Assembly (NCBI RefSeq): GCF_005221325.1
Contig: NZ_CP039889.1
Coordinates: forward strand, 372,001-436,000
DNA length: 64,000 bases
Direction of reading: 5' to 3'
Source of the DNA: Agrobacterium tumefaciens
GTDB taxonomy: Bacteria > Pseudomonadota > Alphaproteobacteria > Rhizobiales > Rhizobiaceae
Under the pieces are notes generated by a model. That model saw only the letters and a list, made by a program, of their open reading frames with translations. It ran no database searches and had not been told where the DNA came from. Positions 37,463-50,873 of this stretch are shown one piece after another. Position 1 is the first letter of the stretch, and every line of letters begins with the position of its first letter. The position numbers were made by a program, and so were the translations under genes.

Positions 37463-38536
37463 CTAAAGCGCCAGGCCGCTGGCCCTGTCGAAGACATGCA
37501 CACGTTCATGATGCACGGTGGCGGCAAAGGGCGTATTGACCTTCACCGGTTGCTCGCCATCCACCACCGCCGTCACCTGATCACCCGCCAGTTCAAAGAC
37601 CACATGGGTCTGCGCGCCGGTCGGTTCCACCAGCACCGTCCTGCCGGAGAGCGAGATATCGCCGCCGATGATCGAGCCGATATGTTCCGGTCTCAAGCCA
37701 ATCGTCACCGGCTGGCCGCGTTTGACCTTTCTGGAGGCGGCAATGCGGATCGCGGTTCCATCCTTCAGCCGGGCGGCGGGCTGGTCGCCCTCGCCATCGA
37801 CCACGCCTTCGATGAGGTTCATGGCGGGCGAACCGATGAAGGCGGCGACGAAGAGATTGGCGGGTGTCTTGTAAAGCTCGAGCGGCGTGCCCTGCTGTTC
37901 GATGCGACCGTGATTGAGCACCACCACCCGGTCTGCCAGCGTCATGGCTTCGATCTGGTCATGGGTGACATAGATGGAGGTCGTACCGACCTTCTGATGC
38001 AGTGCCTTGATTTCACTGCGCATCTGCACGCGCAGCTTGGCATCGAGGTTGGAGAGCGGCTCATCGAACAGGAAGACTGCAGGGTTGCGCACCACCGCGC
38101 GCCCCATGGCGACGCGCTGACGCTGGCCGCCGGAAAGCTGCGAGGGCTTGCGGTCCAGAAGCTTGCCGAGATCGAGCATGCGGGCGGCTTCCGCCACACG
38201 CTCTTCGATGACGTTTTTCGGTTGGCCGGCAAGCTTCAGGTTGAAACCCATGTTTTCGGCCACCGTCATATGCGGATAAAGCGCGTAAGACTGGAACACC
38301 ATGGCGATGTTGCGCTCACGCGGGGTCATGCCATTGACCACCTTGTCGCCGATGAGGATATCCCCATCGGTGATTTCCTCCAGCCCGGCGATCATGCGCA
38401 GCAACGTGGACTTGCCACAGCCGGAAGGCCCAACCAGCGCGATGAATTCGCCGTCCGTTATATCAAGCGAGATGCCGTGAATGACATCGAGCGAGGCATA
38501 GGACTTGCGGATATCCCTAAGTTCGACGGAAGCCAT
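37463..38536 (-). CDS. Sugar ABC transporter ATPase (UgpC/MalK type)
   Basis: 357 residues. Walker A GPSGCGKST (36-44), Q loop MVFQSYALYPHMTVAENMGF, signature LSGGQRQRVAMGRAVVRNP, Walker B VFLFDEPLSNLD and switch IYVTHDQIEAMTLADRVVVL. A C-terminal OB/TOBE domain of about 120 residues (IGLRPEHIGSI...) is typical of CUT1 importers. It energises the two permeases encoded just upstream. The 146-base gap to the isomerase is the largest in this operon. Confidence 0.93.
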   Translation of the reverse strand: MASVELRDIRKSYASLDVIHGISLDITDGEFIALVGPSGCGKSTLLRMIAGLEEITDGDILIGDKVVNGMTPRERNIAMVFQSYALYPHMTVAENMGFNLKLAGQPKNVIEERVAEAARMLDLGKLLDRKPSQLSGGQRQRVAMGRAVVRNPAVFLFDEPLSNLDAKLRVQMRSEIKALHQKVGTTSIYVTHDQIEAMTLADRVVVLNHGRIEQQGTPLELYKTPANLFVAAFIGSPAMNLIEGVVDGEGDQPAARLKDGTAIRIAASRKVKRGQPVTIGLRPEHIGSIIGGDISLSGRTVLVEPTGAQTHVVFELAGDQVTAVVDGEQPVKVNTPFAATVHHERVHVFDRASGLAL

Positions 38537-46625: not shown

Positions 46626-48944
46626 ATGGAAGAGACTGCCTATCAGGGGACAGATAGACAGGTTGAACCGGGCCAGAAGCTTCGCTCACCGACGCAACCG
46701 GAAACAGGCCGGTTTTCGCGGCGGCGGTCACTTGCCAGCAAGATAACCCTCATCTTTCTGGGCGGCGTAATCTTTTCCTACAGCATTGGCGCACTCGTCG
46801 GCTGGTACATGTTCGTCGCCGCTGCGGGCGAGCAATGGCTCAACCAGGCCCGCGTCAACTCGCAGATTGCCAGCGCCACGCTTCGCAGCATCTACACCTA
46901 TGTCAGCGTCACCGCCGATGCGGACGGGCAGGTCAATGGCATATTGACCGACAAACCGATTGGCGATGATGATTCCATTCTCGTCACCGGCTTCAACCCC
47001 AGTGACGTTCTCGCGCTTATTGGCGCACAGACCAAGAATGCCGTCTGGCTTTTCCGTTATGACGAGGCAGATTCCGGCTTTCGCCAGATCGCTACCGCCT
47101 TTGACAACGCCACCGATGACGGCGAAAAGCCGCTTGCCACCGATCCCATCTTTTCCAGAGATGCGGTTGCCGCGCGTTTTTCCACCGGTTTTGCCACCAT
47201 CGGCGAGTCCAGCCACTATATCGGCCTGCTGCCGATCATCAGCACGGAAACGAAGAAACCCATCGGCGCGGTCGCCGTCAGTATCGGCGGTTCGGACGCG
47301 CTTTACGGCGCACAGCGCAAGCTGATCTATAATTCGCTCGCCGCGCTGATCGTGGTCCTGACCGTTACCGGCGTGCTTGTGACCGTCATTGCCCGGCATT
47401 TCCTCAAACCGGTCCCGGCGCTGGTGCAGGCAACACTTCGAATTGCCCGTGAAGAAACCGATGTCGTCACACCGTTTCAGGAACGACGGGACGAAATCGG
47501 CGACATGGCGACCGCCATTGAAACACTGCGTGAAGCGGTTCTGGAACGCGGACGCCTGCGGCAGATACGCGATATGGCGCAGCAGCTCGAACATATGGCG
47601 CATCACGATGCACTGACCGGACTGCCCAACCGCGTGCTGCTGATGAAGACGCTGGAAAACCGTCTCGAACATCTTGCCGCGTCAGGCCAGCCATTCAATG
47701 TCATGCTGCTCGATCTCGACCGCTTCAAGGCCGTCAATGACACGCTGGGACACGCCGCCGGCGATGCCTTGCTGGTGGCGGTGGCCTCGCGCATTTCTTC
47801 CGTGCTCGGTGAAAACGACATGGTGAGCCGTCTCGGCGGCGACGAATTCGCGATTATCCAAACCACAAAAGGCGATTGCGAGAGCGACGCGGCGATGCTG
47901 GCAGCGCGGGTGGTGCATGCGGTCTCGCGCAGATTCAACCTCGAAGGCAGCGATATCAGCATCGATACCAGCATCGGCATCGCCTGCGCGCCGGGTCACG
48001 GCACATCCGCCACGCAGCTCCTGCAACATGCCGATCTCGGCCTTTACCGTGCAAAATCCATGGGCTGCGGTTATTTCGTCTTCTACGAGCCGGGCATGGA
48101 CATGGCGGCAAAGCACAAGCATGCGTTGGAAATCGACATGAAATCCGCGCTTGAAAACCACGAATTCGAGCTGCATTACCAGCCCGTGGTCAATCTGCAG
48201 AGCGGCCGCATCGTCGCTTATGAGGCGCTGGCCCGCTGGCGGCACAGCAAACTCGGCCTCATCACCCCGGACCGCTTCATCACCCTTGCGGAAGAAAACA
48301 ACTTCATCAAGCCGTTGGGCGAATGGGTGCTGGCGCAGGCCTGCGCAGATGCGATGCGCTGGCCGAAAGATATCAGGCTCGCCGTCAATCTGTCCGCCGT
48401 TCAGCTCTCCAATGATGATATTGTCCCTGTTGTCGACCGCGCACTCGAAAAATCCGGCTTCCCGGCCGAGCGGCTCGAACTGGAAGTCACGGAAACCGCG
48501 ATGCTGGAGCGAGACAGCAGTACGAAAGCGTTGAAACTGCTGAAGGAAAGAGGTGTCCGTTTAGCACTTGATGATTTCGGCACCGGTTATGCCGGGCTCA
48601 GCACGCTGACCCACGTCGCCTTCGACAAGATCAAGATCGACCGCGAATTCGTCTCCGGCCTGCCCGCCAATCCCATGTGTTCGGCCATCGTCAACACCAT
48701 CATCGACATGGCCGAGCAGATCGGCCTGAAGGTGACCGCCGAGGGCGTTGAAAACATGGATCAGCTCGAGGCCCTCAAGCTTTCGGGGTGCGATGAAGCG
48801 CAGGGCTACTATTTTGCCGAACCCGCGCCGCTTGCCCGGATACTCAGGAATCGCGCCGTTATCACCCCGGTCGCGAAGGACGAGATCGACGATGTCGGTC
48901 AGTCAGTACGCAACGCCTATCACCCACCACAAAAAGCGATTTGA
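46626..48944 (+). CDS. Membrane sensor with GGDEF and EAL domains (c-di-GMP turnover)
   Basis: 772 residues. A membrane helix at about 40-63, a periplasmic sensor region at about 68-230, a second helix at about 235-257, then a HAMP-like segment (258-315). The GGDEF domain (about 325-490) has an intact GGDEF at 404-408, but the inhibitory RxxD site reads GEND at 395-398. The EAL domain (about 500-745) keeps E533 (YEALARW), N588, E620, D649/D650, K670, E706 and Q726, so phosphodiesterase activity is expected. It may both make and degrade c-di-GMP. Two periplasmic binding-protein genes follow in the same direction, 30 bases downstream, and could supply its ligand signal. Confidence 0.92.
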   Translation: MEETAYQGTDRQVEPGQKLRSPTQPETGRFSRRRSLASKITLIFLGGVIFSYSIGALVGWYMFVAAAGEQWLNQARVNSQIASATLRSIYTYVSVTADADGQVNGILTDKPIGDDDSILVTGFNPSDVLALIGAQTKNAVWLFRYDEADSGFRQIATAFDNATDDGEKPLATDPIFSRDAVAARFSTGFATIGESSHYIGLLPIISTETKKPIGAVAVSIGGSDALYGAQRKLIYNSLAALIVVLTVTGVLVTVIARHFLKPVPALVQATLRIAREETDVVTPFQERRDEIGDMATAIETLREAVLERGRLRQIRDMAQQLEHMAHHDALTGLPNRVLLMKTLENRLEHLAASGQPFNVMLLDLDRFKAVNDTLGHAAGDALLVAVASRISSVLGENDMVSRLGGDEFAIIQTTKGDCESDAAMLAARVVHAVSRRFNLEGSDISIDTSIGIACAPGHGTSATQLLQHADLGLYRAKSMGCGYFVFYEPGMDMAAKHKHALEIDMKSALENHEFELHYQPVVNLQSGRIVAYEALARWRHSKLGLITPDRFITLAEENNFIKPLGEWVLAQACADAMRWPKDIRLAVNLSAVQLSNDDIVPVVDRALEKSGFPAERLELEVTETAMLERDSSTKALKLLKERGVRLALDDFGTGYAGLSTLTHVAFDKIKIDREFVSGLPANPMCSAIVNTIIDMAEQIGLKVTAEGVENMDQLEALKLSGCDEAQGYYFAEPAPLARILRNRAVITPVAKDEIDDVGQSVRNAYHPPQKAI

Positions 48945-48974
48945 GAAACCGGCCGCCGGCCAAAAGGACATAAT

Positions 48975-49868
48975 ATGCGCCTTTCAGTATTTTGCCTTTT
49001 CCTCACATGCTTTGCCCCTGTTACTGCCTTGCAGGCAGCCGAAGCAGGCGACACGCTTCAGCAGATTGCCAGAACCGCAAAAATCCGCATCGGCTATCGC
49101 GAGGCGGAGCCGCCCTTTTCCTATCAATTGCCCAATGGCGAGGTTACCGGCTTTTCGACCGATCTCTGTCGGGCGATCAGCGAGGATATTCGCAGCAAGC
49201 TCAAGCTCGACAAGATCGAACTCGAATACGTCAAGGCAACGCCCGCGACCCGCTTCATCCTTGTCCGCAGCGGCCAGATCGACATTGAATGCGCCGCCAC
49301 CACCAATAATAGCGAACGCCGCAAGATCGTCGATTTCTCCTATCCCAACTTCATGACCGCAACGCAGTTTCTCTCCCGCAAGCAGGACAATCTGAAAAGC
49401 CTTGCCGATCTCGCGGGGCGATCCGTCACATCCGCCTCCGGCACCGTCAATATCGAACAGCTAAACGCCATAAACCGCGCGAAGAACCTCAATATCTCGG
49501 TAATGCCGACCAAGACCAATGAAGAAGCCTTCGAGCTTGTTGTTGCCGGCAAGGCCTCCGCCTTCGTGATGGACGGCATATTGCTGGCGGCGCTGGCGGC
49601 GACCTCGGAAAATCCGGACCTATATGCACTTTCCGAAGAAACCCTGAGCGCTCCCGAACCCTACGGTCTGGTTTTCCGGCGGAACGACCCGGCGTTCAAG
49701 GCGGCGGTCAATGATAGTCTTCGGCATATCTTCACCAGTTCAACCATTCACGGCCTTTATGAAAAATGGTTCACCAAACCCATTCCGCCGAATGGCATGA
49801 ACCTGAACCTGCCGATGGCCGCCTCCCTGAAACAGGCCTACGACCATCCGAGTGAATACCAGGACTGA
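48975..49868 (+). CDS. GltI-like periplasmic amino acid-binding protein, orphan 1
   Basis: 297 residues with signal peptide MRLSVFCLFLTCFAPVTALQAAEA. SBP family 3 features: IRIGYREAEPPFSYQLPNGEVTGFSTDLCRAI, TRFILVRSGQIDIECAATTNNSERRKIVDFSYPNF and LADLAGRSVTSASGTVN. The C-terminal YEKWFTKPIPPNGMNLNLPM resembles glutamate/aspartate-binding GltI. No permease or ATPase gene is near. It starts 30 bases after the GGDEF-EAL stop, and a paralogue follows. Likely a ligand sensor for the cyclase/phosphodiesterase rather than a transporter part, by analogy with NspS-MbaA. Confidence 0.88.
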   Translation: MRLSVFCLFLTCFAPVTALQAAEAGDTLQQIARTAKIRIGYREAEPPFSYQLPNGEVTGFSTDLCRAISEDIRSKLKLDKIELEYVKATPATRFILVRSGQIDIECAATTNNSERRKIVDFSYPNFMTATQFLSRKQDNLKSLADLAGRSVTSASGTVNIEQLNAINRAKNLNISVMPTKTNEEAFELVVAGKASAFVMDGILLAALAATSENPDLYALSEETLSAPEPYGLVFRRNDPAFKAAVNDSLRHIFTSSTIHGLYEKWFTKPIPPNGMNLNLPMAASLKQAYDHPSEYQD

Positions 49869-49939
49869 AAGCGCAAGACGCCAAACCGCATTGATTTGAT
49901 GACGATGTTTTAACGGATTATTTTAGCTGGAGATGCGCG

Positions 49940-50842
49940 ATGCAGAGATCGACATTGTGGCTTTTGTTGTTTTTCCTCAGTCTTCTGCCCGCAGAGGCGG
50001 CCAGCGACGATGCCCAACCGCCAACACTTGAAACCATTGCCAGAACAGGCACGATCCGGCTCGGCTATGCCGACCGCAACGTTCCCTTTTCCTATCTGGG
50101 CACCGCCCCGGAACCGATCGGCTACAGTATCGAACTGTGCCTGAGAGTGGCGGATTCGATCAAGAAAAAGCTGGGCTTACCGGAGCTGAAGGTCGAGTTC
50201 GTTAAACGCACGCCCAGCAACCGCATCATGCTTCTCAATGACGGCACCATGGACATGGAATGCGTGGCGAGCACGAATACGGAGGAAAGACGCAAGGCCG
50301 TCTGGTTTTCCTACAGCCACTTCATCACCGGCACGCGTTATGTCGCGCTGAAATCGAGCGGCCTGAACACCGTCGCCGATCTCGCCGGACGGACGGTGGT
50401 GGTGACGACGGGCACCATCAATATCAGCCAGCTCAACGTGCTCAATCGCAAACTGGGAATGAACATCGCCGTCCTGCAGAATGACAGCACCGAGGGCAGT
50501 TTCGACATGGTGACGGAAAACCGCGCCTCTGCCTTCGTCATGGACGATATTCTCCTGCGTTCCTTTGTCGCCGAGACCGGCAGGCCGGAAGATTATGTCA
50601 TTTCGAACGAATATCTCGCCCCGCCACAGCCCTATGGCCTGATGCTGCGGCACGGCGATACCGGTTTCCGGGACGCCGTCAACGAAGCGCTGGGGCAGAT
50701 TTATGCAAGCGGCGAAATCGAGAGAATCTACGACAAATGGTTCAACGCGCCGATCCCGCCGAACGGGATGAACCTCCAGCGTCCTCTGCCTGGCGATCTG
50801 GCCGAGGCGTTTCGAAGACCAGTCGATACGACAGCGGAATAA
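49940..50842 (+). CDS. GltI-like periplasmic amino acid-binding protein, orphan 2
   Basis: 300 residues with signal peptide MQRSTLWLLLFFLSLLPAEAAS. Paralogue of the preceding gene: IRLGYADRNVPFSYLGTAPEPIGYSIELCLRVADSI, RIMLLNDGTMDMECVASTNTEERRKAVWFSYSHF, LADLAGRTVVVTTGTINISQLNVLNR and YDKWFNAPIPPNGMNLQRPL. It shares the binding-site blocks with orphan 1 but differs across the rest, so the two may recognise different ligands. Last gene of the module; a strong terminator begins at its stop codon. Confidence 0.88.
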   Translation: MQRSTLWLLLFFLSLLPAEAASDDAQPPTLETIARTGTIRLGYADRNVPFSYLGTAPEPIGYSIELCLRVADSIKKKLGLPELKVEFVKRTPSNRIMLLNDGTMDMECVASTNTEERRKAVWFSYSHFITGTRYVALKSSGLNTVADLAGRTVVVTTGTINISQLNVLNRKLGMNIAVLQNDSTEGSFDMVTENRASAFVMDDILLRSFVAETGRPEDYVISNEYLAPPQPYGLMLRHGDTGFRDAVNEALGQIYASGEIERIYDKWFNAPIPPNGMNLQRPLPGDLAEAFRRPVDTTAE

Positions 50843-50873
50843 AAAACGCCGCTCCAAGGTGGGCGGCGTTTTT
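50842..50873. terminator. Bidirectional terminator between orphan SBP gene and minE
   Basis: AAAAACGCCGC and GCGGCGTTTTT pair over 11 bases around a 10-base loop. The A and T ends of the stem give T runs on both strands, so it can end both the SBP and the minCDE transcripts. Confidence 0.85.

Follow-up and report, generated by a model that had tools for sequence, protein, structure and literature searches.

How might a bacterium compare the amino acids outside the cell before deciding to attach or to swim? This question is raised by a compact three-gene unit in the window (the whole stretch of 64,000 nucleotides analysed), in which the gene of a c-di-GMP enzyme is followed by two genes coding for related amino acid-binding proteins (SBP1 and SBP2; Table 1). 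The unit is likely to be an amino acid receptor, made up of two differing binders, one Cache-like sensor, a HAMP linker, and a c-di-GMP enzyme. The observations behind this reading are the gene order and its conservation, the absence of a detectable permease, the common origin and subsequent split of the binders, and the catalytic motifs of the enzyme.

Layout of the three-gene unit

All three genes lie on the forward strand, with a gap of 30 bp between the enzyme and SBP1 genes and of 71 bp between the SBP1 and SBP2 genes. SBP1 and SBP2 are 43% identical to each other, the next best match within the genome being 27% identical. The unit is closed by a hairpin with a folding energy of -20.2 kcal/mol (z -4.69; none of 200 shuffled sequences equally stable), which was absent from the output of a simple terminator scan. 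Open reading frames, Pfam matches, and folding hence bear out what a sequence-only reading of this DNA had described, namely a GGDEF-EAL gene, two paralogous binders on the same strand with short gaps, and a strong terminator. The locus tags of the unit may be Atu3243-3246, which appeared in none of the open-licence papers.

Table 1. Features of the three-gene unit (positions in the window)
Feature	Position	Strand	Basis or remark
GGDEF-EAL enzyme ORF, membrane HAMP-GGDEF-EAL protein	46626..48944	+	772 aa; predicted dual c-di-GMP synthase/phosphodiesterase
Periplasmic sensor region, single-Cache-like by model	46806..47321	+	about residues 61-232
Most conserved sensor stretch, candidate pocket or docking site	46962..47048	+	residues 113-141
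HAMP linker	47385..47540	+	Pfam, residues 254-305
GGDEF domain, motif intact	47598..48065	+	Pfam, residues 325-480
EAL domain, catalytic motifs present	48141..48824	+	Pfam, residues 506-733
SBP1, SBP_bac_3 binding protein, predicted secreted	48975..49868	+	297 aa; Pfam SBP_bac_3 E 1.6e-29
SBP2, SBP1 paralogue, predicted secreted	49940..50842	+	300 aa; Pfam SBP_bac_3 E 1.8e-28
Intrinsic terminator hairpin, end of three-gene unit	50842..50873	+	folding vs shuffles

Conservation and spread of the unit

The sensor-HAMP part was found in all 37 genomes of the same genus, that of the window included, with identities of 42-100%. In the 12 kb taken around the sensor from 20 of the other 36 genomes, the order enzyme, SBP1, SBP2 was found without exception (20/20 loci, L055 having an additional SBP1-type gene), and the amidase flank of the window was present in only four. 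The unit is also present in A. tumefaciens B6 (L066). Among 297 genomes of the family, the sensor occurred in ten, and five loci from four genomes of other genera also had the binder pair. The enzyme was followed by at least two binders in 25/25 loci of this first set, same-genus and other-genus loci taken together. A second set of 53 loci, which was retrieved with one sensor peptide pattern, represents a lower bound, and shares genomes with the first, had two same-strand downstream binder genes in 48 cases and one binder in the other five. The adjacency that the sequence-only reading had proposed to look for in rhizobia is therefore conserved, and it extends further, as the 53 loci came from Agrobacterium, Rhizobium, Pseudorhizobium, Allorhizobium, and Ectorhizobium (Rhizobiaceae), Methylobacterium, Halomonas/Vreelandella, Halovibrio, Nitrincola, Citrobacter, and one metagenome contig labelled Bordetella. 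SBP1 was upstream of SBP2 in all 37 loci with both binders on the tree described below. Moreover, the ten family genomes with the sensor were the same ten in which a binder matches with an E value of 1e-80 or lower, none of the best binders in the remaining genomes being better than 1.3e-50 (the best seven candidates at most scored per genome); these ten genomes are related and do not stand for ten independent events. The pairing of the enzyme with two binders is not due to chance. Two binders are not always needed, since four Methylobacterium loci and the Vreelandella locus L109, the latter with an SBP2-type gene only, keep one.

The sensor was also found on seven plasmid records, two of which were typed as conjugative. 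These are A. vitis pAt and the record of Rhizobium sp. SL42, the unit of the latter being two genes away from traG. In the annotation of each, an EAL protein comes first and a pair of "amino acid ABC transporter substrate-binding proteins" next. A third plasmid record, of Halomonas sp. PA16-9, carries the locus without annotation. On the conjugative Rhizobium plasmid (unit at L131:4953-9057), the nearby traG is of the Ti type.

Transporter context and origin of the binders

In a search with permeases and one ATPase that belong to amino acid systems of the same genome, a polar amino acid permease was found at none of 78 module loci (phmmer, E 1e-4, ORFs of at least 100 aa), a number that includes the same genome twice in some cases and loci that end early (e.g. 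L112, 5.4 kb). Likewise, none was found in the window, the nearest ATPase-like match being at 37463-38536, in line with the earlier statement that no permease or ATPase lies nearby. ATPase-like genes of other kinds occurred near 17 of the 78 loci. As a control, a permease was present within 1.5 kb at four of eight other SBP loci of the same genome. Among the 297 genomes, 12 binders that are not part of the unit came closest to it (E of 1e-30 or lower, identities of 31-40%; further referred to as GltI-type controls), and all of them had permeases and an ATPase alongside. The sequence-only reading had named binders next to a permease in most relatives as a sign against itself; the count was 0/78 loci versus 12/12 controls, which does not refute it.

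Concerning the binders themselves, the closest solved relative of SBP1 is GltI/DEBP (2IA4, 2VHA; E 4.6e-53), with which Arg75, Arg97, and Asp182 are in common. GltI/DEBP is a transporter subunit, whereas the unit binders are altered at some or all of the GltI positions 24, 27, 72, 90, and 164. SBP1 and SBP2 reach 193 and 206 bits against the NCBIfam GltI model (PRK10797), versus a cut-off of 375. They are thus GltI-like, as had been noted from the sequence, and membership of GltI itself was rejected on this score and on the permease-free context. Most simply, the unit binders would descend from a GltI-type transporter protein that later became tied to the enzyme.

Two classes of binders

A binder tree was built from 37 SBP1, 36 SBP2, and ten diverged sequences, the 12 controls, and DEBP, leaving out the near-identical loci L066-L069 and L072-L076 as well as SBP pieces of less than 200 residues (two from L084 and two from L089). 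All unit binders were split from the controls with a UFboot of 100. Within the unit binders, the second-gene binders together with those of Bordetella and Citrobacter formed one side of a split (UFboot 97), and the first-gene binders together with the single Methylobacterium binders formed another (UFboot 79, moderate).

The two classes also differ in the residues lining the putative pocket, counted in GltI numbering for 44 SBP1 and 44 SBP2 sequences, with 13 sequences from ten loci whose binders are missing, broken, or very diverged (L106, L107, L109, L110, L111, L113, L114, L118, L084, and L089) counted apart. We take Arg24, Arg75, Arg97, and Asp182 to have the pocket roles generally assigned to them in GltI. 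Arg75, Arg97, and Asp182 are retained in 88/88 sequences. Arg24 is present in all 44 SBP1 and in no SBP2 sequence (Gly in 31, Ala in 12, Asp in one). Position 27, a serine in GltI, is Glu in 40/44 SBP1 and Thr or Asn in 39/44 SBP2 sequences; at position 164, all 44 SBP1 sequences have Asn or His, and 38 of the 44 SBP2 sequences have Leu or Thr; and Ser72 is replaced by Pro in 33/44 and 42/44, respectively. The window follows this pattern, SBP1 keeping Arg24, Arg75, Arg97, and Asp182 with Ser27 to Glu, Ser72 to Pro, and His164 to Asn, and SBP2 keeping Arg75, Arg97, and Asp182 with Arg24 to Ala, His164 to Thr, and Ser72 to Pro. All 12 controls have Arg24, Ser27, Arg75, Arg97, and Asp182, and two of them have Pro72, so that the Ser72Pro replacement is not special to the unit. 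Nor is the pocket rule universal, because the very diverged binders of Citrobacter (L113 and L114) break the Arg24 pattern, the first lacking Arg24, Arg75, and Asp182 and the second having Arg24.

Given the conservation of Arg97 and Asp182, both binders probably hold alpha-amino acids, and, judging from the class-specific residues, probably not the same one. In excerpts of a study of a GltI-based sensor, Ser72 and Ser27 contact the glutamate carboxylate, and Ser72Pro changes the preference from glutamate to aspartate (PMC10942590). In view of this change, SBP1 may take a polar amino acid, whether acidic or not, a plain acidic one being disfavoured by the conserved Glu27. As Arg24 is lost, the ligand of SBP2 may be an amino acid without an acidic side chain. 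The class-specific residues thus provide direct predictions for ligand assays. Only four columns are common to both classes yet rare in GltI, and therefore no docking face can be named.

Sensor and catalytic parts of the enzyme

The sequence-only reading had placed a periplasmic region at residues 65-232; such a region is present, with bounds moved to about 61-232 by the structure model (medium confidence). In this model, the sensor resembles a single Cache domain. The best structural match of the medium-confidence model is 8py1, a chemoreceptor sensor domain solved with formate, which belongs to a methyl-accepting chemotaxis protein and shares 20% identity with the sensor; in the profile comparison, it scores hardly better than unrelated CBS proteins (E 0.0064). 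Pfam Cache matches occurred in 9/37 sensors of relatives, dCACHE_1 was not among the families listed, and a region of approximately 170 residues would be small for a double Cache. The most conserved stretch has the pattern GD..S...TG..P.DVL.L...QT....W, with 13 positions invariant in 37/37 sequences, which makes it a candidate pocket or docking site.

Regarding the catalytic part, GGDEF is found at residue 404 and EAL at residue 533, and the EAL domain has the N, E, DDFG, K, E, and Q motifs, so that the presence of both motif sets predicts a dual GGDEF-EAL enzyme. The position of the expected I-site arginine is occupied by glycine. The roles of these catalytic and I-site motifs are presumably those generally known. 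Among the 53 loci, 29 encode GGDEF and EAL, 22 encode GGDEF in an ORF that lacks EAL, and two have a broken frame. Both binder genes are kept in 17 of the 22 GGDEF-only loci, the second binder frame being broken in two (L084 and L089), and SBP2 is therefore not simply the partner of EAL. A rule by which GGDEF-only enzymes would have one binder and GGDEF-EAL enzymes two was considered and rejected, as it is contradicted by the per-ORF profile scan. Methylobacterium (L106, L107, L110, and L111) has a GGDEF-only enzyme and a lone SBP1-clade binder; this group, without EAL and without a second binder, would fit a pairing of SBP2 with EAL. On an enzyme tree of 42 sequences (near-identical L066-L069 and L072-L076, as well as L084, L115, L118, and gap-rich rows dropped), the presence of EAL switched at least two times, with UFboot values from unrooted splits of 88 for the GGDEF-only group minus Methylobacterium and of 81 for Methylobacterium with the group of the window (A. 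tumefaciens clade). The latter grouping suggests that the Methylobacterium units arose by transfer followed by loss. GGDEF is the part common to the relatives, and its output may be the controlled element in all of them. Natural one-binder and EAL-less versions of the unit offer a ready comparison.

Comparison with known systems

Control of c-di-GMP enzymes by binding proteins is already known from NspS-MbaA and ArtI-STM1987. In Vibrio cholerae, the gene of a dedicated periplasmic binder, NspS, likewise neighbours that of a membrane GGDEF-EAL enzyme, MbaA, part of which is periplasmic, and Sinorhizobium meliloti SMc00991/SMc00992 has the same type of arrangement (excerpts of PMC9993111). There, NspS is a single PotD-type polyamine binder encoded upstream of, and overlapping, mbaA, whereas the unit has two SBP_bac_3 binders downstream of the enzyme; both MbaA proteins have SGDEF, whereas the GGDEF of the window enzyme is intact. 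The spermidine/putrescine family (PotD/PotF-type) was not among the matches listed for SBP1 and SBP2, both of which are SBP_bac_3 proteins, and membership of the NspS-MbaA family was rejected on this ground. The comparison with NspS, drawn from the start, hence stands as an analogy and not as a family assignment; by this analogy, the unit would work like NspS-MbaA but form a separate family.

In Salmonella, a putative amino acid binder, ArtI, is needed for the arginine response of STM1987, a c-di-GMP enzyme with a Cache domain in the periplasm, and in Pseudomonas aeruginosa, RmcA has an SBP_bac_3 domain in c-di-GMP-linked arginine sensing (excerpts of PMC8846402). As described there, ArtI-STM1987 involves one binder and a dCACHE_1 sensor, in contrast with the unit, which encodes two binders beside the enzyme and whose sensor is single-Cache-like, and the SBP_bac_3 domain of RmcA sits inside the enzyme, whereas the unit binders are separate proteins, predicted to be secreted. 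The unit agrees with the ArtI-STM1987 type in its SBP_bac_3 binders, its Cache assignment being that of the medium-confidence model and of the Pfam matches in 9/37 relatives. The unit differs from the known systems in the two dedicated sister binders, the sensor type, the spread, and, compared with NspS, the binder family. No account of the three-gene unit was found in the open-licence literature, subscription papers being largely outside the search; in the parts of that literature consulted, only a few c-di-GMP enzymes depend on a separate binding protein for their input.

Proposed mechanism and alternatives

In the amino acid receptor considered likely above, an amino acid would bind SBP1 or SBP2, and the loaded binder would dock on the Cache sensor, the same for both. 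The pose of the HAMP linker would then change, and with it the c-di-GMP output of the enzyme. A bolder version, which we put forward tentatively, is that the units form a family of undescribed, horizontally mobile two-input c-di-GMP receptors, in which permease-free sister binders, separated early into two pocket classes, compete for one docking site on a single-Cache sensor. If true, the enzyme would read how two amino acids are balanced, and not how much of a single one is present. Being genetically linked, compact, and carried by plasmids as well as chromosomes, the unit would allow a clean test of the comparison of outside amino acids.

Alternatively, the binders could be ordinary scavengers for a permease encoded elsewhere, co-transcribed with the enzyme so that c-di-GMP and uptake shift together. 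Their resemblance to GltI fits this, as do the many SBP_bac_3 genes of the genome, half of the eight others examined (4/8) having a permease within 1.5 kb. Still, such scavenging is improbable in view of the failure to detect a polar amino acid permease at any of 78 loci, the intactness of the unit in varied flanks and on plasmids, and the occurrence of sensor and close binders in the same ten of 297 genomes. About as low are the chances that the sensor binds a small ligand itself, the binders buffering or delivering it without docking as signalling partners. Cache domains can bind small ligands directly, the nearest structure is that of a single sensor domain solved with formate, and a pocket could be formed by the most conserved stretch; yet simple delivery would hardly account for two dedicated binders being retained beside the sensor in distant hosts.

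An arrangement in which one binder governs GGDEF and the other EAL, with opposite effects, is suggested by the two binders and two catalytic domains of the window and by the joint absence of EAL and the second binder in Methylobacterium. It is unlikely that each catalytic domain has a binder of its own, and opposite effects on this basis have very little chance of being true, because 22/53 loci have GGDEF without EAL, 17 of these with both binder genes, and the presence of EAL changed at least two times on the enzyme tree. The opposite effects that the sequence-only reading had considered thus find no support, most EAL-less relatives keeping both binder genes. What that reading had observed was confirmed, and its interpretation as a signalling module is supported in part, namely by the adjacency and the absence of a permease.

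Aberrant loci and distant sensor matches

Three binders are encoded behind the enzyme at L055:1650-6874, two of the SBP1 type and one of the SBP2 type. Interrupted frames at L084, L089, L115, and L118 (Nitrincola and Vreelandella/Halomonas) may reflect either sequencing error or decay; the enzyme frame is short or broken in L084, L115, and L118, and the second binder frame is broken in L084 and L089. A class-wide scan of 385 genomes (best six candidates at most scored in each) matched mostly HAMP-side regions. Two distant matches cover nearly the full length of the sensor, namely G613:C79:4757-5593 (E 2.6e-58) and G515:C34:214356-215192 (E 2.3e-54).
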